A stretch of 64,000 bases of DNA. Origin: Streptomyces profundus. GTDB taxonomy: Bacteria > Actinomycetota > Actinomycetes > Streptomycetales > Streptomycetaceae. The notes under the pieces were generated by a model that was not told where the DNA came from, searched no databases, and was given only the letters and a program-made list of their open reading frames with translations. Positions 21,195-47,478 of this stretch are shown here, in pieces; position 1 is the stretch's first letter, and each line of letters opens with the position of its first letter. The stretch covers positions 496,001-560,000 of the forward strand of contig NZ_CP082362.1 in NCBI RefSeq assembly GCF_020740535.1, in the 5' to 3' direction. A program made the translations under genes and the position numbers.

Positions 21195-21294
21195 CCACAT
21201 CAGACCTTGTCTGACCTGCGATTTCTCTCCGGCTAGGGGCTCTCAGAGGCCCCATATGAACAACCGCGTGAACAACGCGAGTGATCTTGTTCGC

Positions 21295-25947: not shown

Positions 25948-26242
25948 CAACCACCCTCTCTGTGCCGCGCGAATATACCGGCGCGACAACAGAGCGGCTA
26001 CGCGTTTCCAGAACGCTGCCTATCGCTGCGCTAGAGCCCCGGTGCAGTCACCACGCCGAAGCTGACGGCGGCTGCCAGCGAGCGAGCGGCGGACAGGCCG
26101 CGGACGGCGAAACCCCGAGACCGCCGGGTGAGCGGACCTCTACGATCTTCAGACGATCCATGCGACTGGTCTACCCGGCTGGCGAGCTGGCCTGTCGGTG
26201 TGGTCCCGCATGCTTGGAGTTCACCTGGCACGAAGGACAACC

Positions 26243-31239: not shown

Positions 31240-32010
31240 GGTACGGACGAGCGGACGGGCGAGGCGGACGGCGAGGACCGAGGGGACGGACGGCGCCTTC
31301 ACACTTCGGATTCTCGTCCACCACTGCGGCGGCCTTGGGCAGGTGGCCGGACGGACGGTCAGGCCAGCGGACGGACCAAGCGTTCGAACAGCGCGCCTGC
31401 GGACGGACGGTCCGCAGCGGCGGACGGGCGCGACCGCCGTGGGGGGGGGCGTTGGGGCGAAGGGGGCGGACCGTCCGTCGGCGCCCACGACTCTGCCGTG
31501 CCCGCGGACGACGCCAGGCGCGGACAGACGGTTGGGCGACGACGGGTTGAGGCACTGGTTCCCGTTCGTCCGCCCGATCGTGCACGGAGAGGGCTGATGG
31601 GACTGTGGACGCCAGGGCACCAGGGGACGACATGCTGTTGGCGAGGGGTGCTCGTTCGGGTGGCCTGACGTAGTAGTCGAGGTGATGCTCCATCTGGCAT
31701 GTGGACCAGGCCGGGGCCGGCGGTGGTCTCGCCTCCTGGCGCGCGGTGCAAATGATCGACTTCCCCCGGGAGTGGGAAGGAAGCAACCGGAGTTCCATTT
31801 CATGATGGGGACCGGCTGAGGGGACGAAGCAGCCCCAGTGCGGACGGGGACGGCGAGCCAGGGCTCGTGAAATCGTGTTTACCTCATCCATCGGAAGCGG
31901 ACGACGTGTAGTGCCGGACGGACGGGGCGTTGCTCCGCCGACGTTCGGACGAAGTGGTCCGAGGTTCCGTCCGCTGTGGCGGCGTGGGACGGACTCGACG
32001 TCGGCGGGGA
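31240..32010. repeat. Field of GGACGG-type short direct repeats
   Basis: More than a dozen copies of GGACGG or GGACGGAC occur here, often as doubled GGACGGACGG, for example near 31290, 31355, 31400, 31845 and 31915. Spacing is irregular, so it is not a simple tandem array. Short repeats of this kind occur in replication origins and in the clt transfer loci of Streptomyces plasmids; biased composition is the alternative. Confidence 0.5.
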
Positions 32011-32049
32011 CGGGCTCCTTGTCATGGTCAGGCACGGGTGTGGTGGGAC

Positions 32050-32415
32050 GCTGGTGTCCGCGGTCGGCGCCGGCCAACACCATGTGGTCGGTCATCTGCG
32101 CGAGCCACGAGGCGATCCGGTCACCGAACACCTGACGCACCCCGGGCAGCGGCTCGTTGCTGGTGAGCAGCGATGGCGCCCCGGCCACCGTCACCGCCCC
32201 GCCTGGCGTCCGCCACCAGCTGCCCCGCCCACGCCCGCATCTGCCGGTGCGTGGCAGTCGCGTGACGAAGTTCGGCCGGGACCCGGTTGTCGGTCCTGGC
32301 ACCTCGGGCCGGCTGCGGTGAGTGAGCTGGGATGCCGCCGTACCGCCCTGATGGCGAACACTCGCTCCACCGCCAGCGACACCGTCGCCAGGGTCTTGAC
32401 GCACTGGCTCATCAC
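32050..32415 (-). pseudogene. Decayed coding remnant, element gene
   Basis: Minus-strand pieces look protein-coding but change frame. One begins MSQCVKTLATVSLAVERVFAIRAVRR (from 32412). Another reads NRVPAELRHATATHRQMRAWAGQLVADARRGG. A third reads LLTSNEPLPGVRQVFGDRIASWLAQMTDHMVL, whose LLTSN ... FGDR pattern recalls the sensor region of AAA+ ATPases. They are not joined in one frame. Identity unknown; frameshifted remnant is my best reading. Confidence 0.3.
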
Positions 32416-32754
32416 GACTCCCTTCGTAGACGGACAGGTCGGTCAGGTTGGTCCATCCCACGTGCATCGGCACCGTAGGCGCCGATCCCTGTCACACCAA
32501 ACCGCCGCCCGAGCGCAGGCCCCCTGAGACCCTCGTTCACCAGGCTCGGCAGCACGCTCGGGGCCATCGGCCGCTGGCAGAACCGCGCCAGCCCCGCGCG
32601 CACCGCCTCGGGGCCCACGTCCTTCCGCAGCCGCGCCCGTGTCCCGGGCGGGGTGGTCCACCACCCGCCTGGGTGGCCAATGCTGCGTGTCGGGCGCTGC
32701 CCGCCCCGCTTTAGCGGTAGATCCACGGTCCATGGTCCTAGATCCAGACAACGA

Positions 32755-32925
32755 GGCTTCGTCGAGCCCTCGACGAACCTTCGGCGAGCCCTCATCGAAG
32801 ACCCTGTGACCTGCGGCTTCGCTGATCGGCGGCGCATACTCGCGAACCCTCGCCACAGGCTCGTCGAGTCCTCGCGGAACCCTCGTCGAGGGCTCGTCGG
32901 AGCGTCGAGGAACACGCGCCGTCGA
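32755..32925. repeat. Cluster of degenerate CGARCCYTCG repeats
   Basis: About seven to eight copies of a 10-bp motif close to CGA(G/A)CC(C/T)TCG in 170 bp, in both orientations: GAGCCCTCG, GAACCTTCG, GAGCCCTCA, GAACCCTCG, GAGTCCTCG, GAACCCTCG and the inverted GAGGGCTCG. Typical of binding-site clusters such as iterons or TraB recognition sites at clt. Confidence 0.55.
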
Positions 32926-33345
32926 CTGATCGGGAGCCGCCGGCACGTCGTCGCGGCGGCAGGAGGCATCCCCGCACCCGCCGCAAGCACACTCGCGCTC
33001 GTGCACCAGGCAAGCCGGCGTACGCCACTTGGAAGGGGCGATGTTCTGCTGCCGGTCCCCACGTCCCGATGCGCAGAAAGCCCCGTAGCCGCAGATCAAC
33101 CCCGCCGGGATGCCATCACTCAGGCCCCGGAAGCAGCTCGCGCTCTGCTGGGTACGGTGAGCGGGCTGACGGGGCACGCACAGTTCGCCAAGATCAGCCG
33201 CAATGTGCTGGCAACCCACGAACGCCAAGCGCCTCGCGGCCTGGCACTGGGGACCAGGCGAGGTCCATGTGTAGCCGCCGGTTCCCTCTCATCCGATTCG
33301 CGCTGGGTGTCTGGGCACATGCTCAGCGTCGGTACCCTGGAGCGC

Positions 33346-34761
33346 ATGTCTACCGCTCCCGTTCGCGTTCGTTTCGCCCCGTCCCCGACCGGCATGTTCC
33401 ACGTCGGTGGCGCTCGGTCCGCCCTCTACAACTGGGCGGTGGCGCGACAGTCCGGTGGCACGTTCGTCCTGCGGATCGAGGACACCGACGCGGCGCGGAA
33501 CAAGCCGGAGTGGATCGACGGGATCATCAGCGCGCTCGCGGCGATCGGCATCCATGCCGAGGATTCGGCGTTCGAGGGGCCGTACTTCCAGTCGCAGAAC
33601 GCCGACCGGCACCGGGAGGCGGCGCAGCAGCTCTTCGCGGCCGGGCGGGCGTACTACTGCGACTGCACTCGGGAGCAGTTGAAGGAGCGCACCGGCTCGG
33701 AGCACCTCGGCTACGACGGGTTCTGTCGGGACCGGGGGCTGGCGTTCGAGGAAGGGCGGGCGCTGCGGTTCCGGACACCGGACGAGGGCGAGACCGTCGT
33801 CGTTGATGTGGTCCGCGGGAAGCCGGCCTTTCCGAACAACACGATCGAGGACTTCGTCATCGCGCGGGGCGACGGGTCCCCCGTCTTCCTGCTGGCCAAT
33901 GTTGTGGACGACCTGGACGAGGAGATCACGCAGGTCATCCGGGGCGAGGAGCACCTGTCGAACACACCGAAGCAGCAGCTGCTGTGGGAGGCGCTCGGTG
34001 CGCAGCCGCCGGTGTGGGCACACCTGCCGGTGATCGTGAACGAGAAGCGGCAGAAGCTGTCCAAGCGCCGCGACAAGGTGGCGCTGGAGGACTACCTCGC
34101 CGAGGGCTTCCTGCCGAACGCGCTGGTGAACTACCTGATGCTTCTGGGCTGGGGACCGGGCGACGACCGGGAAATCCTGCCCTACGAGGAGTTGGAGCAG
34201 CTTTTCCGGATCGAGGACGTCAACACCGCACCCGCCTTCTTCGACGTGAAGAAGCTGACTGCGTTCAACGGCGACTACATCCGCGCCCTGTCGGCGGAGC
34301 AGTTCGTCGCCGCTTGCGCGCCGTGGCTCGTCGCCCCGAAGGCCCCGTGGCCGGCGGAGGCTTTCGACAAGGCGGTCTTCGAGGCGGCGGCACCGCTGGC
34401 GCAGACCCGGCTGGCGCTGCTGTCGGAGATCACCGCCTATGTGGACTTCCTGTTCCTCGACGAGCCGGTGGAGGACGAAGCGTCGTGGAACAAGGCGATG
34501 AAGGCGGGCGCCATCGACATCCTGACGGATGCCCGGAGCGAGTTGGCCAGCGTCGCGGAGTGGACGGCGGACAAGCTGAAGGCCGTCCTCCTGGCCGTCG
34601 GAGAAAAGCACGGGCTGAAGTTGGGTAAGGCGCAGGCACCCGTCCGGGTCGCGATCACCGGCCGGACGGTCGGGCTTCCGCTGTTCGAGTCCATGGAGCT
34701 ACTCGGCCGGGACCGCGTGCTGGCCCGACTGGACGCGGTGGCTGAGAAGTTGGCCGCGTAG
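33346..34761 (+). CDS. gltX: Glutamyl-tRNA synthetase (probable second copy)
   Basis: 471-residue class I synthetase of normal length. The HIGH-type motif is in [20 protein letters not shown] (residues 11-30) and the KMSKS-type KLSKR at about 237-241. [15 protein letters not shown] supplies the zinc-site cysteines, and the C-terminal anticodon domain is complete. It looks catalytically competent. Streptomyces keep housekeeping gltX elsewhere (SCO5547, recalled), so this is probably an extra copy tied to the neighbouring cluster, either supplying Glu-tRNA for biosynthesis or giving resistance to an inhibitor. It ends at 34761 and the convergent operon ends at 34762. Upstream frame extension to 32653 is rejected. 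Confidence 0.93.
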
Positions 34762-35748
34762 TCAGGTGACCTCCGTGAGGAGGTCACCCCAGGCCTTGGC
34801 GAAGTAGTCCAGGTCGAACTGGGCCAGGGCCTCGTATGCCGCCTTGACTTCCGTCTGGCCGGCCGATGCGCGTTCCCGGATCTGCGTCGGCAGGCGGCCG
34901 AGGTCCGGGGCCGGCTGGCCGGTCAGCGCGGCGAGGTCGCCCAGGCCGGCCACCGGGCGGATGAGGCAGGGCAGGCCGAGCAGCAGGGCCTCGGCCGCGC
35001 AGCGGCTCCACCCCTCCCGCATCCGAGGGAGGAAGACCCCGACGTCGCAGGCGCGGAGCAGTCGTAGGTACCGTTCGCGTTCGACGTCGTAGTGTGCGCC
35101 GTCGAAGCCGATGGTGTTGCTGCCGCTGGTGATCACCCGCGTCCCGAGAGCGTCGGCCAGGGCCGCCGAGATCTCCTCCGTTCCCTTCCAGTGCACGGCC
35201 TTCCCCGCGTAGACGGCGATCAGGTCCGGAGGCAAGCCGAACTCGGCACGGCACTCGTCCCGGTCAAGGCTCCGTACCCGCTCGATCTCGGTCAGGTCGA
35301 AGGCGTTGTGGATCACCCGCACGTTGCGAACGCCCCGGGCGCGGAGGAAGTCGGCCCAGTAGGGGGCGACGCAGACCACGGCGGCGCACTGGGGCAGCAG
35401 CCGGAAGAGGCGTTCCCAGAGCATGGCTTCGACGGGGGCGGAGTCGTGTTGGAGCGGTTCGTAGTGGTGCAGGAGGAACACCGTGCGGGCGCGCATCTCG
35501 GGGGTGAACAGCAGCAGGCTGAGGTCGTCCCATACGAAGGTGCCGGTCGTGTCGTTCAGTGCGCGGATCGTCGGGGCCAAGCGGGCGAGGTGGCGGAGCT
35601 TGCGCCAGCGGCGGACGCGGTAGGTCCGCTTGTGGTCGGGAATCGTGCGCCACTGCACGTCGTCGGCCGTCACCTCGTGGAGCATCCGCAGATAGGCCCG
35701 GCCGCCGGTGCGGCCGACGGGCTCCATCGAGTAGACGACCCGCTTCAC
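34762..35748 (-). CDS. Glycosyltransferase, family 4 type
   Basis: 328-residue GT-B fold enzyme and last gene of the eight-gene operon. The C-terminal nucleotide-sugar domain shows AVYAGKAVHWKGTEEISAALADALG and MREGWSRCAAEALLLGLPCLIRPVAGLGDL, the acidic sugar-binding segment of GT4. The acceptor domain starts VKRVVYSMEPVGRTGGRAYLRMLHEV. GTG 35748 has GGAGG seven bases upstream and overlaps the HD gene stop (GTGA). Sugar donor and acceptor unknown. Confidence 0.85.
   Translation of the reverse strand: MKRVVYSMEPVGRTGGRAYLRMLHEVTADDVQWRTIPDHKRTYRVRRWRKLRHLARLAPTIRALNDTTGTFVWDDLSLLLFTPEMRARTVFLLHHYEPLQHDSAPVEAMLWERLFRLLPQCAAVVCVAPYWADFLRARGVRNVRVIHNAFDLTEIERVRSLDRDECRAEFGLPPDLIAVYAGKAVHWKGTEEISAALADALGTRVITSGSNTIGFDGAHYDVERERYLRLLRACDVGVFLPRMREGWSRCAAEALLLGLPCLIRPVAGLGDLAALTGQPAPDLGRLPTQIRERASAGQTEVKAAYEALAQFDLDYFAKAWGDLLTEVT
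34765..34788. terminator. Bidirectional hairpin between gltX and the operon
   Basis: A perfect 10-bp stem, GGTGACCTCC with its complement at 34779-34788, and a GTGA loop. It lies directly after the gltX stop and inside the last codons of the convergent glycosyltransferase gene, so it may terminate both transcripts. Confidence 0.7.
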
Positions 35749-36359
35749 GGGCGTACCTCCGGTTGGTGTTGGACGTACTCGGCGTGGAGCAGCCCGCACA
35801 TGGCCTCCAGCTCGGGAGTGAGGTGGCGGGCGGCCTCGGCGAGGGGGAGGTGGAAGTCGTGCAGGCTCTGGAGGAACCGTCGACGCCGTTCGAGGTTCGG
35901 CGATGCGGCGAGATCGCGCAGGTTGTGGAGGCGGTCGGCGAGCCGGACCAGGAGGTCCTCGGGCGGGAGCGCGGCCTGCTTGGTGCGCCACCGTCCCTCG
36001 TCACCTGAGGACTTGGGGCGCTGTTCGAGGCGGTGGTCGGCTGTCATGGCCCGTAGGCGGGCGGTGAACGGGCGGCCGAGGTGACGGGTGACCGCCGCCT
36101 CCGATTCCGGGGTCACTTCCAGGGCGTCGTGAAGGAGTGCGAGGAGCAGGGTCCCGGGGCGGTCGATGCCGATCTCCGTTCGCAGGAGAGTGACGACGGC
36201 GAGAGGGTGTTGGAGGTACGGCGTGCCCTGGTCGCGGATGTGGCCTTCGTAGACGGTGAGGGCGAGGCCACCGGCAGCGCGGGCGCGGGACTGCTCGTCC
36301 GCGTTCCAGTTGGCGGCGCCGAGCACGCTCAGTATGTGGTCCAGGTCGATGGGACTCAT
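35745..36359 (-). CDS. HD-domain phosphohydrolase-like protein, RelA/SpoT type
   Basis: 204-residue stand-alone HD domain. Metal ligands His51 (YLQHPLAVV), His77-Asp78 (LLALLHDALE) and Asp142 (VRLADRLHNLRDL) line up with the hydrolase domain of SpoT/RelA and small alarmone hydrolases. The hydrolytic ED pair is altered: Glu81 is followed by Val82 (HDALEVTP instead of HDxxEDTP). It might cleave a phosphate ester in the pathway rather than ppGpp. The start ATG 36359 overlaps the carbamoyltransferase stop (ATGA) and its stop overlaps the next start (GTGA). Confidence 0.8.
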   Translation of the reverse strand: MSPIDLDHILSVLGAANWNADEQSRARAAGGLALTVYEGHIRDQGTPYLQHPLAVVTLLRTEIGIDRPGTLLLALLHDALEVTPESEAAVTRHLGRPFTARLRAMTADHRLEQRPKSSGDEGRWRTKQAALPPEDLLVRLADRLHNLRDLAASPNLERRRRFLQSLHDFHLPLAEAARHLTPELEAMCGLLHAEYVQHQPEVRP

Positions 36360-38080
36360 CCATCCCACCTCGTACGGCATTGCTGGACGTGGGGGTTGGG
36401 GACGTGGTCGGCGAGCAGCAGGGTGTCCCCGACCGCGAGGGCATCGAGGCCGAGTTCGGCCGCAGCTGCCGCTGCCTGCTCGGCGGTCCGCAGGATCGGG
36501 GAGCCCTTGCGGTTGAAAGAGGTGTTCAGCAGCAGCGGCAGGCCGGTGCGGCCGTGGAACCGTTCGAGGAGTTCACGCAGGCCCTCATGGCCGGCGGAGA
36601 CGGACTGGACCCGTGCGGTGCCGTCGTGGTGGGTGACTGCGGCGACACGGTCAGCCCGGCACCGGCGGATGTGGGCGACGCGGTTCATGAACGGGTCGCC
36701 CGCCGACATGAACCAGTCGGTGGTGTGCTCGGCGAGGACGGCGGGGGCGAACGGTCGGTAGGAAGCTCGTTTCTTGAGCGCGTTGAGCCGGTCCCGGGTA
36801 GCGGCGTGGCCGGGGTGGGCGAGGATCGAGCGATGGCCGAGGGCCCGGGGCCCAAATTCGAGCCGTCCCCGCACCCAGCCGACGATGCGGTGCTCAGCGA
36901 GCAACTCGGCCACCGTGGACTCCAGTTCCGGACCGAGGTCGGTCAGGGCGCGGTAGCCGGACGGCACCGCGGTCGCGGACAGCGCGCCCGGGAGCGGGCC
37001 CCAGGCCGCGTCGGTCAGCGCGGGGAGGCGCTCCTGCCCGAGTTGGTAGTGCCAGCCGTAGAGCGCGGCGCCCACGGCGGTGCCGGCGTCGTGCGGAGCT
37101 GGTGCCACGAAGAGGGTGTCGAAGCCGCTGTCGGCGGTCAGCTGACCGTTGAGGTGGGAGTTGAGGGCACATCCGCCCGAGAACACCAACGCCGAGGCGC
37201 GGGTGAGCCGTTGCAGGTGGCGGGCGACGTGAACGACCGCTTCGGCGAAGACCTGCTGGGCTGCGGCGGCCAGGTCGGCGCGCTCTTTCTCCGGCTGTCC
37301 CTGGACGTTGGCGACAGTCCAGGCTCGGCCGTCGAGCAGCAACGGCGTGCTGCTGTCCGCTGAGCCCCAGGGGTGGGCGATGTGGACTTCGCCGTCATCG
37401 CCGAGCCGGACCAGTTCGCGGATCTGCGGTCCGTAGTGCTGGGGATCGCCGAAGGCCGCGAGCGCCATCATGCTGCCCTCGGGCTCGTCGCCGGGCGGGA
37501 TCACCCGCCGGGCGAGGTTCCGGTAGAAGTGCCCGAGGGAGGAGTGGACACGTCGAGGTCCGGAGGGGCCCGGGAGGACGGTCGGCATACCTTGATGGAG
37601 GCGGTCGATGCGGTCGGGGCGCAAGTCGTACCCGGTGATGCGTTCCCGGCCGGGGCCGAAGTCGGCGCCAAGGGAGGAGCCGCCGGCGTCAATGACGAGG
37701 CCGGCCGCGTGTTCGTGCCCGGAGAGCAGGTAGCCGGAGAGCGCATGGGCCGCGTGGTGGGACAGGAGGCGAAGGTGCTCGCCGAGCGGCACCGGCAACA
37801 GGGCGGCGAGTTCGTCCCGTTCCTGGGACAGCCAACTGCCGGCCGCCGGGTTGGGGCGCATGGAGGCCGCCCATACGACGTCCACGTCCTGCGGTGGGAT
37901 GCCGGCGGCTTCCAGGCACCACCGGAGCGCGCGAATCGGGACGGTGAGCGTGCCCTTGCGGGTGGTGTGGTGGTGTTTGATGCCGCTCCATCGTTCCTCT
38001 TCGGCCGCGTAGAGGCGGCCGTCGACCACCAGGGCAGCGGCGGTGTCGTGGTGGAAGTTGAGTCCGAGGACTGCGGGCAT
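36356..38080 (-). CDS. O-carbamoyltransferase (NodU/CmcH/TobZ family)
   Basis: 574-residue carbamoyltransferase, normal length. These enzymes convert carbamoyl phosphate and ATP to carbamoyl-adenylate, then carbamoylate a hydroxyl of an antibiotic or sugar. The Kae1-like N-terminal domain has NFHHDTAAALVVDG, a metal-binding SHHAAHALSGYLLSG and GLVIDAGGSSLGAD. VFSGGCALNSHLNGQL and the YrdC-like region RGRLEFGPRALGHRSILAHP are hallmarks, followed by NTSFNRKGSPI. It is the clearest pointer that the operon makes a small molecule. It lies 26 bp after the radical SAM gene and overlaps the HD gene. Confidence 0.94.
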   Translation of the reverse strand: MPAVLGLNFHHDTAAALVVDGRLYAAEEERWSGIKHHHTTRKGTLTVPIRALRWCLEAAGIPPQDVDVVWAASMRPNPAAGSWLSQERDELAALLPVPLGEHLRLLSHHAAHALSGYLLSGHEHAAGLVIDAGGSSLGADFGPGRERITGYDLRPDRIDRLHQGMPTVLPGPSGPRRVHSSLGHFYRNLARRVIPPGDEPEGSMMALAAFGDPQHYGPQIRELVRLGDDGEVHIAHPWGSADSSTPLLLDGRAWTVANVQGQPEKERADLAAAAQQVFAEAVVHVARHLQRLTRASALVFSGGCALNSHLNGQLTADSGFDTLFVAPAPHDAGTAVGAALYGWHYQLGQERLPALTDAAWGPLPGALSATAVPSGYRALTDLGPELESTVAELLAEHRIVGWVRGRLEFGPRALGHRSILAHPGHAATRDRLNALKKRASYRPFAPAVLAEHTTDWFMSAGDPFMNRVAHIRRCRADRVAAVTHHDGTARVQSVSAGHEGLRELLERFHGRTGLPLLLNTSFNRKGSPILRTAEQAAAAAAELGLDALAVGDTLLLADHVPNPHVQQCRTRWDG

Positions 38081-38106
38081 GGTGGGGTACCTCCGGCCTT
38101 GAGGGC

Positions 38107-38880
38107 TCAGGTGGCGAGTGCGGGGACGACGGCTGAGCCGGAGTCGGTGTATTCGTGGCAGCGCAGGCAGAACCGGAAGTGGTGGCCTCGGGGCGCGAAG
38201 ACCTTGGCCGCGAAGTCCTCGTCCCAGATGCTGAATTCGCTGTCGTCCTTCGCCATGGCGTTGAAGCAGCGGTAGCAGGAGCCGTCCATCTCGATCATCA
38301 GGTGCTGGTCCAGGTAGCGGTCGCAGATGCCTCGCAGATCGTTCGCCGGCTGGCCGACATCGACGTGGTGAACGTGGTTGGTGACATGGATGGCGCCGAA
38401 CCTGCCGCAGAGGCTGGCGAGTTGCGCAAGCCGAGTGGAACTGATGCCTTCCAGGACGCTGTTGACGACCACCGTCTTGCCGGCTTCGCGGAGGCGGGGG
38501 ACGACGGTGTGCACCTCGTCGTAGTTGGCGTGCTCGTCGTCGCAGCCGATGAGGATCTGGTCGTATGAGCGGAGGGCGGCGTCCATGATCCGCTGGTTGC
38601 GGGCCAGGGTGATGGCGTTGGTGCCCAGGACCATGACCTTGCCCGGCAGCCGGGTGCGCGCGAGGGCGCTCAGGGCGGGGAAGTCCCGGTGCACGGTGGG
38701 CTCACCACCGTTGATGTGCAACTGCTGGAACGGGATGGTCTCCAGCCGGTCAAGGACCGTGGTGAACAGCTCCACGGACATGTTCTCGCCCTGGGCGCCG
38801 TCGGCGAAGATGCAGAAGTCGCAGGAGCGGTTGCACTTCGTCGTGATCTTGATCTTCGCGGTCCTCAGGATGCGGGGCAT
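38107..38880 (-). CDS. Radical SAM protein with C-terminal cysteine cluster
   Basis: 257-residue radical SAM enzyme. The 4Fe-4S motif CNRSCDFC (Cys16, 20, 23) lies near the N-terminus and INGGEPTVH (about 56-64) is the SAM-binding GGE motif. Five more cysteines (186, 202, 205, 238, 241) form a SPASM/twitch-like region for an auxiliary cluster. Such proteins make C-C, C-S or epimerisation changes by radical chemistry. No precursor peptide gene is visible nearby, so a small-molecule substrate is as likely as a peptide. The gene start overlaps the upstream gene end by 16 bp. Confidence 0.88.
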   Translation of the reverse strand: MPRILRTAKIKITTKCNRSCDFCIFADGAQGENMSVELFTTVLDRLETIPFQQLHINGGEPTVHRDFPALSALARTRLPGKVMVLGTNAITLARNQRIMDAALRSYDQILIGCDDEHANYDEVHTVVPRLREAGKTVVVNSVLEGISSTRLAQLASLCGRFGAIHVTNHVHHVDVGQPANDLRGICDRYLDQHLMIEMDGSCYRCFNAMAKDDSEFSIWDEDFAAKVFAPRGHHFRFCLRCHEYTDSGSAVVPALAT

Positions 38881-40010
38881 GGCGAACTCCTCGGGTCAGG
38901 GTGAACGTCGCCCGGCGTGAGACTGAGGAAGTCCTGCACGGTCGCCCGCTGGCGGTGCCAGCGCGCGAGGGCCACGCGCAGGATGCTGGCGGTGGTCGGT
39001 CCCGTGGGGATCAGCGCCGCCATCCGGGCGGCCAGCCGCTGGGCGGGAGCGGCCTCGTCCGCCGCGAGCGCGGTCAACGCCCGGGCGGCGGAACTGAGTT
39101 CCTTCGCCTCTCGGCGGATCAGGTACTCGGTCGCCACGCCGGGCGGTGGGTCGAGGTAGTACAGCCAGCGGGCGACACGTACGCGGAGCATCCCGGCGGT
39201 CATCACCCAGTCGGTACGGACGTGTTCCTCGTTACGGCCCTCGGCCGGGCCCTGCGCATCGGGAACGCGACGCATGGCCGCTGCCAGGGCGACGTGGGCT
39301 GTGCGGAGCAGTTGGTGCGGGCTTCGGCCATCCGGTGGTTGCTCGGCGTGCCGGAGGAATTGTTCCCCGTACCGCCCCAGCCCGTCCGGTCGCCACTGGG
39401 TGAGGGCGGTCGTCTTGCCAGGGCAGCGCGTCCGGGTCGCGAGCGCGGTGGCGGCAAACCAGCACGGGGCAAGGTAGTGCCAGGCGACGCAGTGGCGCCG
39501 GTACCTGGCAAGGTCCCCCATCACGTTGTCGGTGCTGTCGGCCGCCAGCTGGTACTGGCCGCCCAGCCGGGAGTGGAGGATTCCCCGATAGAACCGCTCG
39601 TCGATATCTCCCCAAGGCGCCATCTGCGCACGGGACTTCCAACGCTGGAAGTCCCTGGTGCTCCCGCTGATCAGCGACCAGGTCGCCAGCTCGGGCGCGG
39701 AGACGAGCTGCCCATCCGCCTCGGCCGTGATGAACGCGAAGCCGGGCGGATGCTCCAGAAGACGTCGATGGGAGACCTCTCGGGCGACCGCCGCGGTGTG
39801 CGCGGCGGCCAGCCGGTGGTTCCACCCCTCCCAGTCCTCGGGGACCCGAGGGAGGAGGACGCGCACGTCGATGTCGGAGTGCGGGGCGAGTAGATCGGCG
39901 GGCTGCCACTTATGGGTAAGCATCACGGCCCCGAGGCCCTGAGCCGCCAACTCGCGCTCGTACAGGGCGCCGAGTCCTTGGTAGAGAGGTGGTGCCTCGG
40001 CCATGACCAT
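38865..40010 (-). CDS. Nucleotidyltransferase-like protein
   Basis: 381-residue protein. Residues 25-55 (GAVMLTHKWQPADLLAPHSDIDVRVLL) resemble the pol-beta nucleotidyltransferase core: SDIDVRV gives the two catalytic aspartates, but the preceding Gly-Ser motif is replaced by Thr-His. The rest is helical, with ELATWSLISGSTRDFQRWKSRAQM and several Trp-rich segments, and belongs to no family I know. It may add a nucleotide or bind one. The ATG at 40010 overlaps the upstream stop (TGATG), so it is translationally coupled. Confidence 0.6.
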   Translation of the reverse strand: MVMAEAPPLYQGLGALYERELAAQGLGAVMLTHKWQPADLLAPHSDIDVRVLLPRVPEDWEGWNHRLAAAHTAAVAREVSHRRLLEHPPGFAFITAEADGQLVSAPELATWSLISGSTRDFQRWKSRAQMAPWGDIDERFYRGILHSRLGGQYQLAADSTDNVMGDLARYRRHCVAWHYLAPCWFAATALATRTRCPGKTTALTQWRPDGLGRYGEQFLRHAEQPPDGRSPHQLLRTAHVALAAAMRRVPDAQGPAEGRNEEHVRTDWVMTAGMLRVRVARWLYYLDPPPGVATEYLIRREAKELSSAARALTALAADEAAPAQRLAARMAALIPTGPTTASILRVALARWHRQRATVQDFLSLTPGDVHPDPRSSPCPAS

Positions 40011-41119
40011 CACCGCTCCCCCGTGGAGGCGCGGGCGCAGGAGGGTCCGGCCGCGTCTGTGGGGACGACGGGGAGCAGCGGCAGGACGGCGGTGCCCTCG
40101 GGGCGTTCCATACGGTCCCAGCGCAGGTCGTAGTCGACGTAGTGGAAACCCTGCCAGGCGTCGTTGGTGTCCCGGTCGAGCATGGCCTGGAAGAGGTGGG
40201 CGAAGGCGTCGCCGAGGGTGCCCTCGGCGAGGTGGGGCTTCAGGGGAATGTCGCGGTTGTGCAGGATGCAGGGCCGTGCCACTCCCGTGGGGGTGATCTT
40301 GATGCGGTTGGCGTCGGAGCAGGTGGCGCAGCTGGAGTTGGAGATGAAGCCGATCGATCCGGCCCAGCCGGCGGGCCGGAGGTACTGTCCGGGGCTGCGA
40401 ACACCCAGCTGATCCCTGGGGACTTCGCCGGCGTCGGCAAGCCACGCGTGGAGCCGGTCGCGGACCTCCGCCTCGTTGATGAACTCGGTGTCGAACAGCG
40501 CCTGCGCGGGGCCGATGTTCTGGAGTTCGATCAGGCGGACGGCGATGGGCAGCTCCCGGGCGAGCTGGGCCACGGCGAAGGCGTCGTCCAGGTAGGTGCG
40601 TTGGAGGACGCAGTTGATTTTCACGCGCAGGCCGAGGGCGAGGGCGGTGTCGAGGGTGCGCCGGGTGGTGCGCGGGTCGCCACCGCCCATGATCGCGGCC
40701 GACCTCGTCGGGTCGAGGCTGTGGAGGCTGAGGTTGAGGTATGTCAGGCCGGCGCTGTGAAGCTGTTCGACGCTGAGCCCCCGGCGCAGGTTGCCGTGGC
40801 TGGTGATGCCGATGGCGGCATCGGGCCCGAGCCCTTCGGCCAGGCCGGCGATGACGTCGAGGATGTCAGCCCTGAGCGTCGGCTCACCGCCGGAGCAGTG
40901 CGCCTTCCTGATCCGCCAGCCGCCGGCCTCGGCGGCGATGGCCGCGTAGTCGGAGGCGGTCAGGGGCCGGTCCTTGTGTCCGTAGTCCGGCATACAACGG
41001 GGCTTGCAGAAGACGCAGTCCAGATTGCACAGGGAGTTCAGGGTGAGCGCCAGATAGGGGTGATTGCGGCCGGTCGCGGCGAACGCGGCGACCAGATCGC
41101 GCTGGTGTACGTCGAGCAT
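40010..41119 (-). CDS. MoaA-like radical SAM enzyme
   Basis: 369-residue radical SAM protein. Motif CNLDCVFC (Cys31, 35, 38) and HCSGGEPTLR are near the N-terminus. The C-terminus has a second cluster region like GTP 3',8-cyclase MoaA: GFISNSSCATCSDANRIKITPTGVARPCILH with Cys264, 267 and 284; MoaA has 13 residues between the last two cysteines, here 16. Molybdenum-cofactor partners are absent nearby, so it is probably a pathway enzyme derived from MoaA, possibly acting on a nucleotide. ATG 41119 has GGAGG about eight bases upstream. Confidence 0.85.
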   Translation of the reverse strand: MLDVHQRDLVAAFAATGRNHPYLALTLNSLCNLDCVFCKPRCMPDYGHKDRPLTASDYAAIAAEAGGWRIRKAHCSGGEPTLRADILDVIAGLAEGLGPDAAIGITSHGNLRRGLSVEQLHSAGLTYLNLSLHSLDPTRSAAIMGGGDPRTTRRTLDTALALGLRVKINCVLQRTYLDDAFAVAQLARELPIAVRLIELQNIGPAQALFDTEFINEAEVRDRLHAWLADAGEVPRDQLGVRSPGQYLRPAGWAGSIGFISNSSCATCSDANRIKITPTGVARPCILHNRDIPLKPHLAEGTLGDAFAHLFQAMLDRDTNDAWQGFHYVDYDLRWDRMERPEGTAVLPLLPVVPTDAAGPSCARASTGER

Positions 41120-41130
41120 CGGTCGGCCTC

Positions 41131-42120
41131 CTACGAGGGAGAGTTGGCAGTCGGCGCTTCGGCCAGGCCGTTGAACGCCTGGCCGGCGAGAAAGCGGTGC
41201 AGGTTGTCGGCGAAGAACGCGACGGCCGCGTCCATGTACGTGCGGCTGAACACGGAACTCTTCGGCGTGAGCACGACCCGAGGGTGGTGCCGCAGGGGAT
41301 GACCAGGCGGCAGCGGCCTGGGCTGGTAGACGTCCAGTCCCGCGCCGCGAAGGTGGCCGGCGTCGAGGGCGGTAAGGAGGGCCTGCTGGTCGACGGTCGT
41401 CGCACGGCCGAGGTTGAGGAAGAGGGACTGCGGCTTGAAAGCCGAGAAGAGGTCGTGGTCGAAGAAGCGGTCCGTTGCCGGGTTGGCCGGCAGCAGATCG
41501 ACCACCACGTCGGCGACGGCCACCGCCTGACGCACGGCCGAGGTGTGCATCCATCTGATTCCGCTGCTGTAGGCCGCCGTTGGCGTCCGCCGTACCCCGA
41601 TGACGTTCATACCGAAGGCGTGCGCGGCGCGGGCGAGGTGTTCCCCGATGCTGCCGCAGCCGACGATGGTCATCGTCGCCCCCGCCAGGTCGAAGAACTC
41701 CTCGGCCAGGTCGTCCTTCCAGCAGATGCGGCTCCGCTGCGCGCGTTGGCTGATGAACAGCCCACGGGAGAAGCCCAGGATCAGTCCCATGGCGTGCTCG
41801 GCCATGGGGCGGCCGTGAAAGCCGTACGAGCGGGTCAGAGCCACGCCGGCCGAGTTCGCTTCGGCGACGGGGAGGTGGTCGGTGCCGGCGGCCGGGGAAG
41901 CGATCCACCGCAGACGCGGCGCGCCGGCCAGCCACGATGGTTCGAAACGCCACCCGAAGAAGACGTCGACGTCGACCAGTCCGCGCGGCAGGACCTCTTC
42001 GCTCACCGCGCGGAACTCGACGTGGGGGAAGGCAGCACACAGCGAATGCAGGGGGCTGTCGGCGAACTGCCAAAAGGAGTATGGGGATTCCAGGCTGATC
42101 AACACCACCGGTCGGTTCAT
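41131..42120 (-). CDS. D-2-hydroxyacid dehydrogenase-like protein with altered active site
   Basis: 329-residue member of the D-isomer-specific 2-hydroxyacid dehydrogenase family. The NAD motif GCGSIG is at residues 154-159 and the substrate-binding Arg is kept (Arg239 in LNLGRATT). The catalytic Glu of the DVxExE motif is Arg268 (LDVYQPRPLP) and the acid/base His of LTPH is Lys287 (LTPKSS). Lysine may take over, or the protein may act on another substrate. ATG 42120 overlaps the upstream glycosyltransferase stop by 4 bp. Confidence 0.85.
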   Translation of the reverse strand: MNRPVVLISLESPYSFWQFADSPLHSLCAAFPHVEFRAVSEEVLPRGLVDVDVFFGWRFEPSWLAGAPRLRWIASPAAGTDHLPVAEANSAGVALTRSYGFHGRPMAEHAMGLILGFSRGLFISQRAQRSRICWKDDLAEEFFDLAGATMTIVGCGSIGEHLARAAHAFGMNVIGVRRTPTAAYSSGIRWMHTSAVRQAVAVADVVVDLLPANPATDRFFDHDLFSAFKPQSLFLNLGRATTVDQQALLTALDAGHLRGAGLDVYQPRPLPPGHPLRHHPRVVLTPKSSVFSRTYMDAAVAFFADNLHRFLAGQAFNGLAEAPTANSPS

Positions 42121-43427
42121 CGTTCAGCGCCCTCCGTGGTTGGCGACGGCGCCATGGCCCAGGGCGCGACGTGGCCGAGCGCGTAACGGACGTTGGCCTG
42201 GTAGTCGTGGCGCGAGCGCACCAGAGACATCCCGTTCCGCCGGAGCCGCTCGCGCTCCTCGGTTCGGATGGTCAGGGCACGATGAACCGCAGAGGCAAGG
42301 GACTTGGGGTCCCCTGGCTCGGCGGTGAGGCCGGTTTCCCCCTCGACAACGGTCTGAGTAAGACCGCCGGCCCTGGTCGCGACCACCGGCCCCGCGCCGG
42401 CCGCGAACGCCTCAAGTGGTATCCGCCCGAAGGGTTCTTCACGCGAGGGAACGATTACGGCACACAGGGCCGAGCTGTGCAGCCAGGCGCGCACTGCGGG
42501 GGTGAAACGAGTGATCAAGGTCGCGTCCAGGTCGTAGGCGTGGACAAGTGCCGCCAGGTCCTTCTGGTACGGGGTCGCGTGATCGTGCCTGTCCGAAGTC
42601 ACCGCGGCCAGAAGCAGGGGCGGAAGGCGGACGCCACGCTCCTTCAAGAGACGCAGCGCTTCCAAGAGGTCCTCGAAACCCTTCGCTGGCACGGCGCGGC
42701 CCATCGCAAGAAGGAAACCGGCACGGGCCCTGTGGGGCAGGGCTGGAACGTGCGCCGGCCTGGCCATTTCCCCCGGGATCAGCCCGTTCGGGATGCTCAC
42801 GATGTTCGCCGCGGGAACGACGCAGTCAGCGATGAGGTGGGTGAGCATATGGGACGAGATGGCGCCGATCCGCGCGCCTCGGAGGGGCGCCGTCCGCAGG
42901 GCCTCCCGTTCCCAACGAACTCGCGACAGGTCTCTCGGCCGCGTCAGCGCGCTGGAGGAGCGGGGTATGAGGAGCAGATCCGTGGTCGGTGCCGCCCGGG
43001 AGGCGAGCCCGAGGAGAGGGGCGTCGAGACCGATGACGAGGCATCGGCTCGCATCGGCGGCGATGCGAGCCGTGGCCTCACCCGCGAGGTCGCATAGTGC
43101 TGCCCAGCTGCGGAGTGAGTCCGGCGGTGCGTGGATCTTGGGGATGGTGACGACCTCGGCTGCGGCCTGCCGAAGCATCTGCCGGACCTCGCCGGCCCAC
43201 CCCCCATCGAATGCGCCCGCCCCCTCCGGGACGTTTGGTGTGATCACTGAGAGGCGACCTGCCGGCAGCAGGCGGACCAATGCCGTGAGGAGGGCTCGGT
43301 TGCTGAAGCCGGTGCCCGACGCCGCGCCGAAAAGTCCCTCGTGGAGGGCTACGACGACACGCGGCTGGCCAGTGGCCTTCGACCTGTCCTGAGGCGGGGG
43401 TGATGGACTCGTGTGGTCGATACGCAC
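42117..43427 (-). CDS. Glycosyltransferase, family 4 type
   Basis: 436-residue GT-B glycosyltransferase and first gene of the eight-gene operon. The donor domain shows LLAMGRAVPAKGFEDLLEALRLLKERG and VPSREEPFGRIPLEAFAAGAGPVVATRAGGLTQTVVEGETGLTAEPGDP, the GT4 E-x7-E region. The acceptor domain starts PRVVVALHEGLFGAASGTGFSNRALL. GTG 43427 follows GAGGAGG at about nine bases. The frame is open further upstream, but that region is the divergent promoter. Unlike the last gene's product, this one is a textbook GT4. Confidence 0.88.
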   Translation of the reverse strand: MRIDHTSPSPPPQDRSKATGQPRVVVALHEGLFGAASGTGFSNRALLTALVRLLPAGRLSVITPNVPEGAGAFDGGWAGEVRQMLRQAAAEVVTIPKIHAPPDSLRSWAALCDLAGEATARIAADASRCLVIGLDAPLLGLASRAAPTTDLLLIPRSSSALTRPRDLSRVRWEREALRTAPLRGARIGAISSHMLTHLIADCVVPAANIVSIPNGLIPGEMARPAHVPALPHRARAGFLLAMGRAVPAKGFEDLLEALRLLKERGVRLPPLLLAAVTSDRHDHATPYQKDLAALVHAYDLDATLITRFTPAVRAWLHSSALCAVIVPSREEPFGRIPLEAFAAGAGPVVATRAGGLTQTVVEGETGLTAEPGDPKSLASAVHRALTIRTEERERLRRNGMSLVRSRHDYQANVRYALGHVAPWAMAPSPTTEGAER

Positions 43428-43535
43428 CGTGCGGGGCCTCCTCGGGGGAACGACCTTCTGCGGAGGTGTACGACAGCTGCCGGCACCTCCGGCCGGACCT
43501 CCAGAACACCGGAGAAGGCCGGTCGCGCAAGACCC

Positions 43536-43559
43536 GATCAACGGGTCAACTCGGTCAAC
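43536..43559. promoter_or_regulatory. Three direct GRTCAAC repeats in the divergent promoter region
   Basis: GATCAAC (43536), GGTCAAC (43544) and GGTCAAC (43553) recur at 8-9 bp steps in the 227-bp gap between the operon start (43427, minus) and the regulator start (43655, plus). This is a plausible operator for the adjacent regulator; no clear -10/-35 pair was recognised. Confidence 0.5.
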
Positions 43560-43654
43560 TTCCCTGAGGCGGCGCTGATTTGTTGGCCGGGGGCGGTCAC
43601 CATGGAATGCGGGCGAAGGGCTGGACGAACCACTGAGGCGAGAGGTGGTCGCAC

Positions 43655-45100
43655 ATGGCGCCGCGGGCGGGGACACCCAACATCGTGCTGACCGGGTGCC
43701 TCGACGAACTCGGGTGGAGCCCCAAGGCCCTCGCCCGCAAGCTCAACAGGGTGTTCGGAGCCGGAACCGTCGCCGAGTCGGCGCCCTACCACTGGCGGGA
43801 CGCCGGCTCCCTGCCACGTTCACCCTTGCCGATGATGGCTGCCTATGTACTCTCCCAGGAGTTGGGTAGGCCCCTCACAGCGGCTGAGCTGTGGCAGGGC
43901 CGGGTGGGCAACTCCTCGGCCTTCGTCCCTGCGGACACGGACCTCGCACGCCCCTGGACCTTGCAGGGGATGGAAGCGATCGTGGAGGACTGGGTGATGG
44001 GAGGGATCGTCGACCGACGCCGATACCTCGCGATCTCGGGTGTCGGACTCCTCGCGATCGTCGCCCAGTACCTCGACGGCACCGCCGGACGGGGCCAGCA
44101 CGCCGCCCGGCTGACGCCCCCGCTGGGCGCCGACCCGCTCGTGGACCACGTAGAGCAGCACCTGCCCATGCTCCAGCTGCTCGACGACGAGCACGGAGGA
44201 GCACGTCATCTCCCGTATGTGGGCGCCCAGTTCCGCGCGGTCGGGTTACTCATCCGCGAAGGCGGCCACTCCCCCGCTGCCACGAGCCGACTGATCCGCG
44301 CGCTCGCGGAGATCGGCCAACTGGCCGGCTGGATGGCCTTCGACGCGGCCGACCACGGCCTGGCCCAGCGCTATTTCGCGACCGCGTTGCGCGCCGCGCA
44401 CCAGGTCAACGATCTACCGCTGTCCGCCCACATCCTCGGTGACCTCTCCTTCCAGGCGGCAAGCCGAGGGCACCCCGCTGATGCCGTCGCCCTCGGCGAG
44501 GCCGCACGCCGAGCCAGCGACGCCGCCCCGCCCGCCGTCCGGGCATCCGTTCTGTCCCGGCTCGCCTACGCCTACGCCACCGCCGGCCGCGACAACGACT
44601 TCGCCCACACCCGCGGCCTCGCCCGTGAGTTGGTCACAGACCGGGCTAGCGGCCAGGAGGAGCCCCGCTGGATGTACTTCCTCACCGACAACCACCTGGA
44701 CTGCCAGGCCGGATACGGCCTCATCCAGATGGGCACCGCACAACGGGCGGCAGGCCAGAGCAAGAAGAGCCGTCGCTTCCTCGCCCAGGGCACCGAACTG
44801 CTCAGATCCGGAGCCTACGGCACTCCGCGCGGCGACCCCAGCCAACGCCGAGCGATGTTCGAGGGGGCCTGGCTGGCCCTTGGACACAGTGCCCACGGAG
44901 ACCTGGAAGCGGCCTGCGACGTAGGCCGGATCGCGGCCAACCGCCTCGATGTCGTGCGCTCGCCCCGCAGCGCGGCCCTGCTCCACCAACTCGCCGGGGA
45001 CCTGCGGCGCCGGCAGCGCAATCCGCACGTGCGCAGCTTCCTGCCAACCCTGGAGAACGCCCTCGCCCAGCACGCCCCATCGACGTCACCCGGCCGTTAG
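43655..45100 (+). CDS. Large transcriptional regulator (N-terminal HTH, C-terminal helical repeats)
   Basis: 481-residue protein. The first about 70 residues (MAPRAGTPNIVLTGCLDELGWSPKALARKLNRVFGAGTVAESAPYHWRDAGSLPRS) look like an XRE-type helix-turn-helix. Residues about 160-470 are TPR-like helical repeats (ALRAAHQVNDLPLSAHILGDLSFQAASRGHPADAVALGEAARRA). Streptomyces regulators of this build often control a neighbouring cluster. It is divergent from the biosynthetic operon and followed after 10 bp by the DAO gene, so the three may be co-regulated. Confidence 0.75.
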   Translation: MAPRAGTPNIVLTGCLDELGWSPKALARKLNRVFGAGTVAESAPYHWRDAGSLPRSPLPMMAAYVLSQELGRPLTAAELWQGRVGNSSAFVPADTDLARPWTLQGMEAIVEDWVMGGIVDRRRYLAISGVGLLAIVAQYLDGTAGRGQHAARLTPPLGADPLVDHVEQHLPMLQLLDDEHGGARHLPYVGAQFRAVGLLIREGGHSPAATSRLIRALAEIGQLAGWMAFDAADHGLAQRYFATALRAAHQVNDLPLSAHILGDLSFQAASRGHPADAVALGEAARRASDAAPPAVRASVLSRLAYAYATAGRDNDFAHTRGLARELVTDRASGQEEPRWMYFLTDNHLDCQAGYGLIQMGTAQRAAGQSKKSRRFLAQGTELLRSGAYGTPRGDPSQRRAMFEGAWLALGHSAHGDLEAACDVGRIAANRLDVVRSPRSAALLHQLAGDLRRRQRNPHVRSFLPTLENALAQHAPSTSPGR

Positions 45101-45110
45101 GGTCAGGATC

Positions 45111-46064
45111 ATGACCACAGGGGAACGCATTGTCGTCATCGGGGCCGGGGTGGCAGGGCTGACCACCGCCGTCGTCCTCGCCGAGACCGGAACTCGGGTG
45201 CACGTGATCGCCGACGAGGTACCCGGCCGCACCTCCCTGGCGGCCGGCGCGATATGGGGCCCCTACCTGGTCGAACCGAAGGACAAGGTCGACCAGTGGG
45301 GACAGCGCTCCTTGGAGTCCTTTCGGGAGCTGGCCGAGAACCCCGCCACCGGCGTCCGGCTCACCAGCGGCATCGAGGCATCCCGGACGGCCGAGACCGC
45401 GCCGAAGTGGGCCACCACCCTGCCGAACTTCCGCTCCTGCGAACGCGCCGAACTCCCTACCGGGTTCGCCTCCGGCTACCGGTTCACCGTGCCGCTGATC
45501 GACATGACCGTCTACCTCGACTACCTCCTGCGTCGACTCCAGACCGCCGGCGGAACCGTCGAGCGACGTCGCGTGGCCTCGTTCCCGGACGCCGGTCCGG
45601 CCCCGGTGATCGTCAACTGCGCGGGACTCGGTGCGGCCGAGCTGGCCGCCGATCCCGAACTCCGCCCCATCCGCGGCCAACACGTCGTCGTCACCAACCC
45701 CGGACTGACCGAGTTCTTCTCCGAGGACACCGGCCCATCACCTGACCTGCTCTGCTGGTACCCGCACGGCGACACCGTGGTCCTTGGCGGCACAGCTGTC
45801 GACGGCCAAGACGACCTCGCCCCCGACGACCAGGCGGCGGCCGGCATCCTCACCCGCTGCGCCGAGGTCGAACCCCGCCTCGCCCAAGCCCACGTCCTGG
45901 AGCACCGCATCGGCGCCCGACCGACCCGGCCGACGGTCCGCGTGGAGAAGGAACTGCTGTCCGACGACACCGCCGTCATACACAACTACGGGCACGGCGG
46001 CGCCGGCGTCACCCTCTCGTGGGGATGCGCCGACGAGGTTCAACGTCTCGCCGAGCGCGAGTGA
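45111..46064 (+). CDS. FAD-dependent amino-acid oxidase (DAO family)
   Basis: 317-residue D-amino-acid-oxidase-type flavoprotein. FAD motif VIGAGVAGLTTAVVLAETG is at residues 9-27 and LAAGAIWGPY follows, as in DAO. Near the C-terminus RIGARPTRPTVRVE and NYGHGGAGVTLSWGCADEV carry the substrate-site Arg and the final FAD-binding Gly-rich loop. It oxidises a D-amino acid, glycine derivative or related amine with O2. ATG 45111 lies 10 bp after the regulator, so it is probably in its operon and may feed or modify the cluster product. Confidence 0.9.
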   Translation: MTTGERIVVIGAGVAGLTTAVVLAETGTRVHVIADEVPGRTSLAAGAIWGPYLVEPKDKVDQWGQRSLESFRELAENPATGVRLTSGIEASRTAETAPKWATTLPNFRSCERAELPTGFASGYRFTVPLIDMTVYLDYLLRRLQTAGGTVERRRVASFPDAGPAPVIVNCAGLGAAELAADPELRPIRGQHVVVTNPGLTEFFSEDTGPSPDLLCWYPHGDTVVLGGTAVDGQDDLAPDDQAAAGILTRCAEVEPRLAQAHVLEHRIGARPTRPTVRVEKELLSDDTAVIHNYGHGGAGVTLSWGCADEVQRLAERE

Positions 46065-46113
46065 GGCCGCCCTCCCTCGTCTCGCGGAGAGAAGGCGGCC
46101 TCATCAGCTGGGA

Positions 46114-46350
46114 TCAGACGTCGAAGCGGCCCGCCCGCACATCGGCGATGAACGCGGCGAAGGGGTCGGGGTCGAGGAGCAGCACGGGGCCACCGGGGAC
46201 CTTGGAATCGCGGAGAGCGACAGACCCACGGGGCGTGGCGGTCAGGTCAGCCGCCTCGACGCAGTTGCCCCCGCCGTTGCTGTACGAGGACGTGAACCAC
46301 TCGGCATCCGCCAGAACGGAAGCCAGAACCTCGGCAGGGTGGTTGTTCAT
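46114..46350 (-). CDS. DUF397 domain protein
   Basis: 78-residue DUF397 protein (ADAEWFTSSYSNGGGNCVEAADL ... VALRDSKVPGGPVLLLDPDPFAAFIADVR), full family core. In Streptomyces such genes nearly always follow an XRE regulator of the kind encoded just upstream, overlapping it by 4 bp. The pair resembles WhiJ-type developmental modules and has been likened to toxin-antitoxin systems. Confidence 0.93.
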   Translation of the reverse strand: MNNHPAEVLASVLADAEWFTSSYSNGGGNCVEAADLTATPRGSVALRDSKVPGGPVLLLDPDPFAAFIADVRAGRFDV

Positions 46351-47222
46351 TCGGTGATCTCTCTCGATAGTTGCTGCAAAATCCTTGGGGTGTCTCCGGG
46401 AGGCTGAGCCCCGGCCACCATCGCGTCGAACATTCGGGAGAAGCGCCCAACATCGCGGGACTTGTCCGATACCGCAACGGTGAACCACGCGGTGTCCGTC
46501 TGGACCGCCGTGGGCAGACCCTCACCGAGAATCATGATGTTGACGTCATGGTAAGCGACATAGCCGCTCCCCGCCTGCGGCAGGATCTGCAAGGTCACAT
46601 TGTCCAGGGCGGCGAGCCTGGCGAGTTCGGCGTACTGCTCGCGCATCACCTCCGCACCGCCGATCGCATAGCGCAGGGCGGGCTCGTACAGGACGCCCCA
46701 GATCTTCGTGGGCTCGTCGTCACGGGTGATGGCTTCCCTCCGCATCATGCGAAGTTGCACGCTCTTCTGCCCGAACTCCGTGGTCGTCTCGTCGATGGGC
46801 TTGGTCAGCTCGTGCAGAGCGCGCGCGTAGTCCACCGTTTGAAGAAGACCAGGAATCACGGTCGGGTGGAAGATGCGGATCTCCCGCGCCGCCGACTCGA
46901 CGCCGAGGAAGCGCTGCATCCCAGACAGGAGGTTGACGGTCCCCACCCCCGTCCACCACTCCCGACTGGACGCGTCGCGCTGCATCGCGATCAGTCGCTC
47001 GATCTCCTCGTCGTCGATGATCCCGTAGCGCTCCAGCAGCAACCGCAGATGACCTGCCTGCCGGAAGGACTTCCAGCCGGTCTCGACTCGTTGGAGCGTG
47101 CTTTCGTCGAACGGCAGGCCTTTCACCGCCTGTTCGATGGTCAGGTCGGCTGCTTTGCGGTGCTGACGCAGCTCGTGCCCAAGCCCGATACGCCGTGCCG
47201 TCGGTTGCGGTTTCGCGGCCAT
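46347..47222 (-). CDS. XRE regulator with DUF5753 (Scr1/WhiJ type)
   Basis: 291-residue regulator. The helix-turn-helix is at residues about 15-70 (LGHELRQHRKAADLTIEQAVKGLPFDESTLQRVETG) and the C-terminal DUF5753 part includes VIPGLLQTVDYARALHEL and LRYAIGGAEVMREQYAELARLA. It likely represses its own operon and works with the DUF397 partner, whose start overlaps its stop. The ATG at 47222 is followed by a basic tail; an upstream Met at 47243 is less likely. Confidence 0.92.
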   Translation of the reverse strand: MAAKPQPTARRIGLGHELRQHRKAADLTIEQAVKGLPFDESTLQRVETGWKSFRQAGHLRLLLERYGIIDDEEIERLIAMQRDASSREWWTGVGTVNLLSGMQRFLGVESAAREIRIFHPTVIPGLLQTVDYARALHELTKPIDETTTEFGQKSVQLRMMRREAITRDDEPTKIWGVLYEPALRYAIGGAEVMREQYAELARLAALDNVTLQILPQAGSGYVAYHDVNIMILGEGLPTAVQTDTAWFTVAVSDKSRDVGRFSRMFDAMVAGAQPPGDTPRILQQLSREITE

Positions 47223-47478
47223 GTGCCCTCCGTTCTGGCGCATGTGCGCGCCGTCATCGCCTTCTGATCAGCCCTGACTGCCTCGTGCATGGAGCAGAAG
47301 CCCACGCGATTGCTTGGGCATATACCAATCCTGATGCCGAGGCTGAATCTGTAGCAGATTCTATTGCGCATGAACTCCGCGTCGAGGGACCTTGGTTGAG
47401 CCTCGGGAAGGCCGGGCCGCCAGCACAGGCGGCCAGGGACTCCCCCAACTCCCCCTGCCCACGACCGGAGGCACCGGC

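Follow-up and report, generated by a model that had tools for sequence, protein, structure and literature searches.

The 64,000-nucleotide stretch analysed here (the window; positions 496,001–560,000 of the 7.65-Mb single-contig genome of Streptomyces profundus) carries an eight-gene operon beside a second, complete gene for glutamyl-tRNA synthetase (GluRS), gltX2, and together these form a conserved and apparently undescribed Streptomyces cluster family. On balance, the sequences slightly favor the view that this new family produces a small antibiotic, carbamoylated and glycosylated, that inhibits bacterial GluRS and from which gltX2 protects the producer. We propose more tentatively, and with somewhat less than even confidence, that the product represents the first natural-product inhibitor class directed against GluRS, built by a two-part enzyme that pairs a dehydrogenase-like protein (DH) with a MoaA-like radical S-adenosylmethionine (SAM) enzyme (rS1), and that also occurs as a fusion in Bacillota.

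The anatomy of the locus can be read directly from the DNA. The eight operon genes are all open reading frames on the minus strand, running from 43,427 to 34,762 in the order GTA, DH, rS1, NT, rS2, CT, HD and GTB. gltX2 is convergent with the operon, its end abutting the stop base of GTB, whereas REG and DAO lie upstream of the operon and are divergent from it, with a spacer of only 227 bp between REG and GTA. The genes are as follows.

33346..34761, plus strand: gltX2, second, complete GluRS (TIGR00464, 433 bits, cut-off 290); proposed immunity copy
34762..35748, minus strand: GTB, GT4-type glycosyltransferase (PF13439)
35745..36380, minus strand: HD, RelA/SpoT/MESH1-like HD hydrolase (PF13328), HD motif kept
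36356..38080, minus strand: CT, O-carbamoyltransferase of the NodU/TobZ/GdmN type (PF02543 and PF16861, both over cut-off)
38107..38880, minus strand: rS2, short radical SAM protein with a Cys-rich conserved C-terminus (PF04055)
38865..40010, minus strand: NT, predicted AadA-like nucleotidyltransferase fold with a helical C-terminal extension
40010..41119, minus strand: rS1, MoaA-like radical SAM enzyme (TIGR02666, under cut-off)
41131..42120, minus strand: DH, 2-hydroxyacid-dehydrogenase-like, catalytic Glu and His replaced (PF02826); putative partner of rS1
42117..43427, minus strand: GTA, GT4-type glycosyltransferase (PF00534)
43655..45100, plus strand: REG, presumed regulator, with no Pfam match and a role suggested by position
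45111..46064, plus strand: DAO, FAD-dependent amino-acid/glycine-oxidase-like protein (PF01266)

A first-pass annotation, made from the DNA alone, had read the eight minus-strand genes as a single operon, and the reading frames bear this out. It had also stated that most junctions overlap, by 1–16 bp; five of the seven do, although the range was slightly off (overlaps of 4, 1, 16, 25, and 4 nt, with the HD value being either 25 or 4 nt according to the start codon chosen; the other two junctions leave 11 and 26 nt between genes). Its family calls were recovered for both radical SAM proteins, 2-Hacid_dh, the carbamoyltransferase, HD_4, both GT4 enzymes, GluRS, and the FAD-dependent oxidase, and hence for the enzymes of carbamoylation and glycosylation, whereas NT had no match in Pfam, NCBIfam, PADLOC, or the other libraries searched. 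Pfam and NCBIfam scans likewise agreed with it in detecting no non-ribosomal peptide synthetase, polyketide synthase, or ribosomally synthesized and post-translationally modified peptide (RiPP) domains in the eight operon genes. A RiPP precursor hidden between operon genes could be ruled out, as no gap there exceeds 26 nt; this screen did not extend to the flanks. At positions 32,000–47,000, nothing in Rfam (T-box included) matched up to an E value of 0.1.

Relatives of the cluster were identified by scanning contigs from 84,980 species with an NT alignment, which yielded 44 loci. One of these (L046) holds only an NT fragment and was left out, leaving 43 loci, by name from 41 Streptomyces, one Planomonospora, and one Nonomuraea. 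Using tblastn (40% identity, 60% coverage), we found DH, rS1, NT, rS2, CT, HD, and gltX2 in all 43 loci (for NT by construction, as the loci were found through it), GTB in 42, GTA in 41, and REG and DAO in 36. The eight operon genes and gltX2 were all present in 41 loci, and all eleven genes in 36. Moreover, the order and strand of the operon genes present, with gltX2 opposite, were identical in 43/43 loci, down to an identity of 46% for the least similar gene (GTA in L045), which argues that the clustering exceeds chance. Operon homologs are thus found together elsewhere, which the first-pass annotation had named as the check on its grouping. Among the incomplete loci, L011 lacks GTA, REG, and DAO at a contig end, and L032 (Planomonospora) is without GTA and GTB although its stretch is complete. 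The excluded fragment (L046 10001–10213, in S. endocoffeicus) spans 71 residues of NT at 77%, with no operon around it, and is possibly a decayed remnant. Between REG and GTA, L003 carries an extra gene (5949–6530) with relatives in 33 of the 42 other loci, 32 of them in the same place, and the corresponding stretch of L007, L008, and L030 matches a HATPase-type gene located at 47,392–47,898 in the window.

Protein searches revealed further relatives in Phytoactinopolyspora, Pseudonocardiaceae, and Dactylosporangium. Among 392 genomes of the same genus (Streptomyces, taken from the nearest named relatives of the cluster), rS1 was detected in 19, or about 5% (E ≤1e-100). A phylum-level search reported 190 of 396 genomes, a figure we rejected as a count because the alignment used included two distant MoaA-type sequences; its two best matches, G000 and G128 (E 1e-187 or better), were widely separated from all others (1e-84 and weaker). 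A plasmid search with NT gave no match. The cluster is probably self-contained and spread by horizontal transfer.

Several lines of evidence tie gltX2 to the operon. The product, GluRS2, is full-length (TIGR00464 matched at 2–465 of 470, at the score listed above), and a separate housekeeping gltX with 52% identity to gltX2 is located at C1:5435210, so that the genome has the layout of synthetase-based self-resistance, in which a second synthetase is linked to the cluster and a housekeeping copy lies elsewhere. Pairwise distances of gltX2 across 42 sequences closely track those of seven operon proteins (all but GTA; Spearman correlations 0.89–0.94), and none of 200 permutations reached the correlation with rS1. 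Because gltX2 occurs in all 43 clusters and its distances correlate with those of the operon proteins, we consider it part of the system; the first-pass annotation had treated it as a mere flank, which these data rule out. In the same-genus genomes, gltX2 (E ≤1e-150) matched 30 of 392, or 29 after removal of G422, whose match groups with housekeeping copies. It was present in 18 of the 19 genomes with rS1 (in one of these, G401, matching over residues 1–294 only), the exception (G760) being 55% complete.

The remaining 11 of the 392 genomes hold gltX2 without rS1, and the surroundings of these orphans (L100–L110) vary. L100 aligns with operon-bearing L006 at ~96% in two abutting pieces, and positions 6,409–14,983 of L006 are absent from it, which indicates that the operon was lost in one clean deletion that spared gltX2, the end of GTB, REG, and DAO. 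In L101, gltX2 is likewise kept together with the end of GTB (95–96% to L029 and L027). A gltX2 of the same type (89%) is located inside a different cluster in L102 (G756:C1:4075000–4094999), beside genes for an exporter of the major facilitator superfamily, an L-amino-acid ligase, a haem-oxygenase-like protein, and a carbamoyltransferase that matches CT at 32%; a GDSL-like protein, scoring below cut-off, is also encoded there. This cluster perhaps makes a second, unrelated GluRS-directed product. A MetRS paralog lies upstream of the orphan in L104 (5958–7814), and an AspRS(Asn)-like paralog and an asparaginase-like gene, both common to L107, lie near the one in L105 (4308–6435), as if spare synthetases gather near orphan gltX2. 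No clear cluster was seen in the parts of L103, L106, L108, and L109 that were looked at.

Comparison of GluRS sequences identified a fixed difference between the two copies. Residue 181 is Phe in all 43 cluster rows (the window and 42 loci; L033, which is frameshifted, was left out of the alignment) and in 11/11 orphans, whereas it is Tyr in 32/32 housekeeping rows (31 distinct genes) and in the PDB chains compared. The KLSKR motif is present in 52 of the 53 cluster and orphan rows and reads MLSKR in one. A fixed Tyr-to-Phe change, a second copy, and the orphans would fit target-based immunity.

The second unusual feature of the family is the pairing of DH with rS1. D-2-hydroxyacid dehydrogenases use Arg, Glu, and His as catalytic residues. 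DH resembles them in its NAD-binding domain, including the glycine motif GCGxxG (13/13 sequences, and 18/18 of the fusions described below), and among solved structures its best match is a phenylpyruvate reductase. Across 44 aligned sequences, the active-site Arg is kept in 43 (with one gap), but the Glu position holds Lys (32) or Arg (11, with one gap) and the His position holds Lys (43) or Ser (1). The "altered dehydrogenase" of the first-pass annotation belongs with the MoaA-like enzyme, as indicated by fusions. At least 18 DH-rS1 fusions (P0243–P0260, 688–717 residues, with 2-Hacid_dh, Radical_SAM, and Mob_synth_C domains) were found among the best 120 of 152 proteins in a search with P0216, including one in a Lachnospiraceae metagenome-assembled genome. 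Arg is kept and both Glu and His are replaced by Lys in 18/18 of these. Of all the evidence, the fusions and their shared alteration speak most strongly for a common reaction of DH and rS1, and for a functional role of the altered site. Two shorter proteins, P0216 and P0217, have only a short N-terminal DH remnant, and their match to DH is weak (hhalign probability 19.9%; BLASTP 2e-4), so the link rests on the full-length fusions. A search of viral contigs for such fusions gave one weak match (21%), and a plasmid search gave only pieces under 60% identity.

rS1 itself resembles the GTP 3′,8-cyclase MoaA in that it aligns over both domains and keeps the N-terminal CX3CX2C motif (44/44). However, it scores 168.3 bits against TIGR02666, for which the equivalog cut-off is 284, with model coverage ending at 314 of 336. 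The C-terminal cluster of MoaA is described in PMC5352715, in its passage on this motif, as CX2CX13C with GTP bound to it. The auxiliary cysteines of rS1 are instead spaced CX2CX16C (44/44), because an Ala aligns with the second Cys of MoaA and a Cys lies three residues upstream. Additionally, Arg17 of the Staphylococcus aureus enzyme aligns with Ala in 42 sequences and with Thr in two, and Lys takes the place of another C-terminal Arg of MoaA in 44/44. Its score (168 vs 284 bits) and the presence of a true MoaA (365 bits) elsewhere in the genome led us to reject the idea that rS1 is another MoaA for the molybdenum cofactor.

The other operon enzymes are more conventional or less readily placed. 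CT has both domains and the conserved motifs (SHHAAH and EFGPRALGHRS) of the antibiotic-tailoring enzymes GdmN (1.7e-68), TobZ, and novobiocin carbamoyltransferase, and scores far below the cut-off of the NCBIfam NodU model. HD matches (p)ppGpp hydrolases and MESH1 in the PDB, with HP...LLHDALE...DR conserved. The structure model of NT resembles AadA, an ANT(3″)(9) adenylyltransferase family that inactivates streptomycin and spectinomycin; this likeness is one of predicted fold, as none of the searched libraries gave a match at the sequence level, and NT extends past the AadA-aligned part by a helical C-terminal segment (about residues 250–379). Across 16 aligned rS2 sequences, CX3CX2C and six additional Cys residues do not vary; the rS2 structure model is poor (pLDDT 61).

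The protein families point to a possible pathway. rS1 and the catalytically altered DH would convert a nucleotide, or some other anionic substrate, into an unusual core, and rS2 may supply a second radical step. We infer, as did the first-pass annotation, that the product could be nucleotide-derived. NT would adenylylate an intermediate, either for activation or to mask it during synthesis, much as phosphorylation masks streptomycin during its synthesis, and HD could then take off a phosphate or nucleotide. CT would attach a carbamoyl group, while GTA and GTB would add sugars, and DAO oxidize an amine, in most producers. REG is predicted to control the cluster, and gltX2 would encode a GluRS that tolerates the compound, shielding the producer.

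Other roles for gltX2 and the operon were considered. Class I lanthipeptide dehydratases use glutamyl-tRNA, and gltX2 might similarly supply Glu-tRNA as a substrate, with an operon enzyme attaching glutamate to the product; a gltX2 in 43/43 clusters would be expected in that case. There is also a precedent in the work reported in part of PMC10727000, where lanthipeptide yields were increased by co-expressing tRNA-Glu with GluRS. However, the domain scans detected no known tRNA-using domain in the eight operon genes, and no such role is left for gltX2 in the 11 genomes without rS1 or after deletion of the operon, which makes this explanation unlikely. Alternatively, immunity could reside in NT through AadA-like self-adenylylation, leaving gltX2 as a passenger or general translation backup. 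The resemblance of NT to an antibiotic-inactivating family is consistent with this, as is its presence in 43/43 loci, though these were found through NT. Yet NT outside the operon was seen among the 44 loci only as the 71-residue fragment, whereas gltX2 recurs alone, and the constant opposite orientation of gltX2 and its co-evolution with the operon oppose a passenger role; we consider this reading improbable. It is similarly doubtful that the operon makes a non-antibiotic, such as a modified nucleotide, cofactor, or surface glycan, with gltX2 relieving the demand for glutamate charging. MoaA-like, HD, and GT4 enzymes also serve cofactor, alarmone, and polysaccharide pathways, and sporadic presence (19/392) also fits accessory metabolism, but the solved relatives of CT are antibiotic tailoring enzymes, and gltX2 outlives the operon and, in L102, sits among the genes of another small-molecule cluster unrelated to this one.

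A GluRS inhibitor with gltX2 as the immunity determinant remains our preferred reading, and several observations weigh against it. NT may be the immunity enzyme in place of gltX2, and no transporter is found in the conserved gene set. Tyr181 presumably lines the glutamate side-chain pocket, as is reported for the Thermus GluRS; a search of the open-access literature for this pocket Tyr by name did not find it, including in the passages of PMC4393105 and PMC5428304 available. Other changed positions near residue 181, His203 and Asn206, are shared with two PDB chains of proteobacterial type. In one orphan (L110, in G681), gltX2 is broken into three frames. Retention in L100 and L101 may be recent and due to chance, as both are close to operon-bearing copies. 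Finally, a FastTree tree of gltX2 requires eight parsimony switches between operon-linked and orphan states (L110 counted as orphan), suggesting repeated origins of orphan copies. This calls for caution, since the two sets of sequences combined in the tree were sampled differently. Shuffled labels gave a mean of 10.3 switches (minimum 7 of 500), so the orphans are only weakly grouped.

Elsewhere in the window, a tRNA-Leu (GAG) is adjoined by a phage-type integrase gene (21110–22665), where an island may start. No second copy of the tRNA-Leu 3′ end, which would mark the end of an island, was found near the window; a match with one mismatch lies at 6,780,719. Transposase or rve-type genes are located at 23,439–23,906 and 27,788–28,690, and two sizeable proteins without a Pfam or PADLOC match are encoded at 24619–25989 (minus strand) and 26198–27610 (plus strand). 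Four minus-strand genes at 52374–60699 match the PADLOC models JetD, JetC2, JetB2, and JetA2 of a Wadjet-type plasmid-defense system.

GluRS is an essential enzyme. Since the cluster carries a probably tolerant GluRS, it offers a candidate target ahead of the compound, and a simple in vitro assay can guide isolation. In the absence of GlnRS, tRNA-Gln is charged by a non-discriminating GluRS as well, according to the section of PMC7916415 on this enzyme. Passages on synthetase inhibitors in two reviews (PMC7916415, PMC4695845) describe GluRS inhibitors that are synthetic or conceptual only, and name no natural one, while in the part of PMC13372681 that mentions gltX, the gene is merely a toeprinting template. 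The DH-rS1 pair meanwhile raises a new enzyme question, namely what a dehydrogenase fold without its acid-base residues does when tied to a MoaA-like enzyme, a tie that occurs in Actinomycetota and in at least one member of the Lachnospiraceae. Among the matches listed in searches of the open-access literature, we found no described cluster of this kind, GluRS-based self-resistance, natural GluRS inhibitor, or DH-MoaA fusion, which agrees with the first-pass statement that the gene set matches no cluster known to its author.

Resistant second synthetases are, however, an established feature of clusters directed at other synthetases, namely those for albomycin (SerRS), agrocin 84 (LeuRS), and indolmycin (TrpRS). 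To our knowledge, the biosynthetic genes described here match none of these three. The arrangement is nonetheless the same, with an extra synthetase beside the biosynthetic genes and a housekeeping copy in the host, and it differs in that the synthetase here is GluRS.

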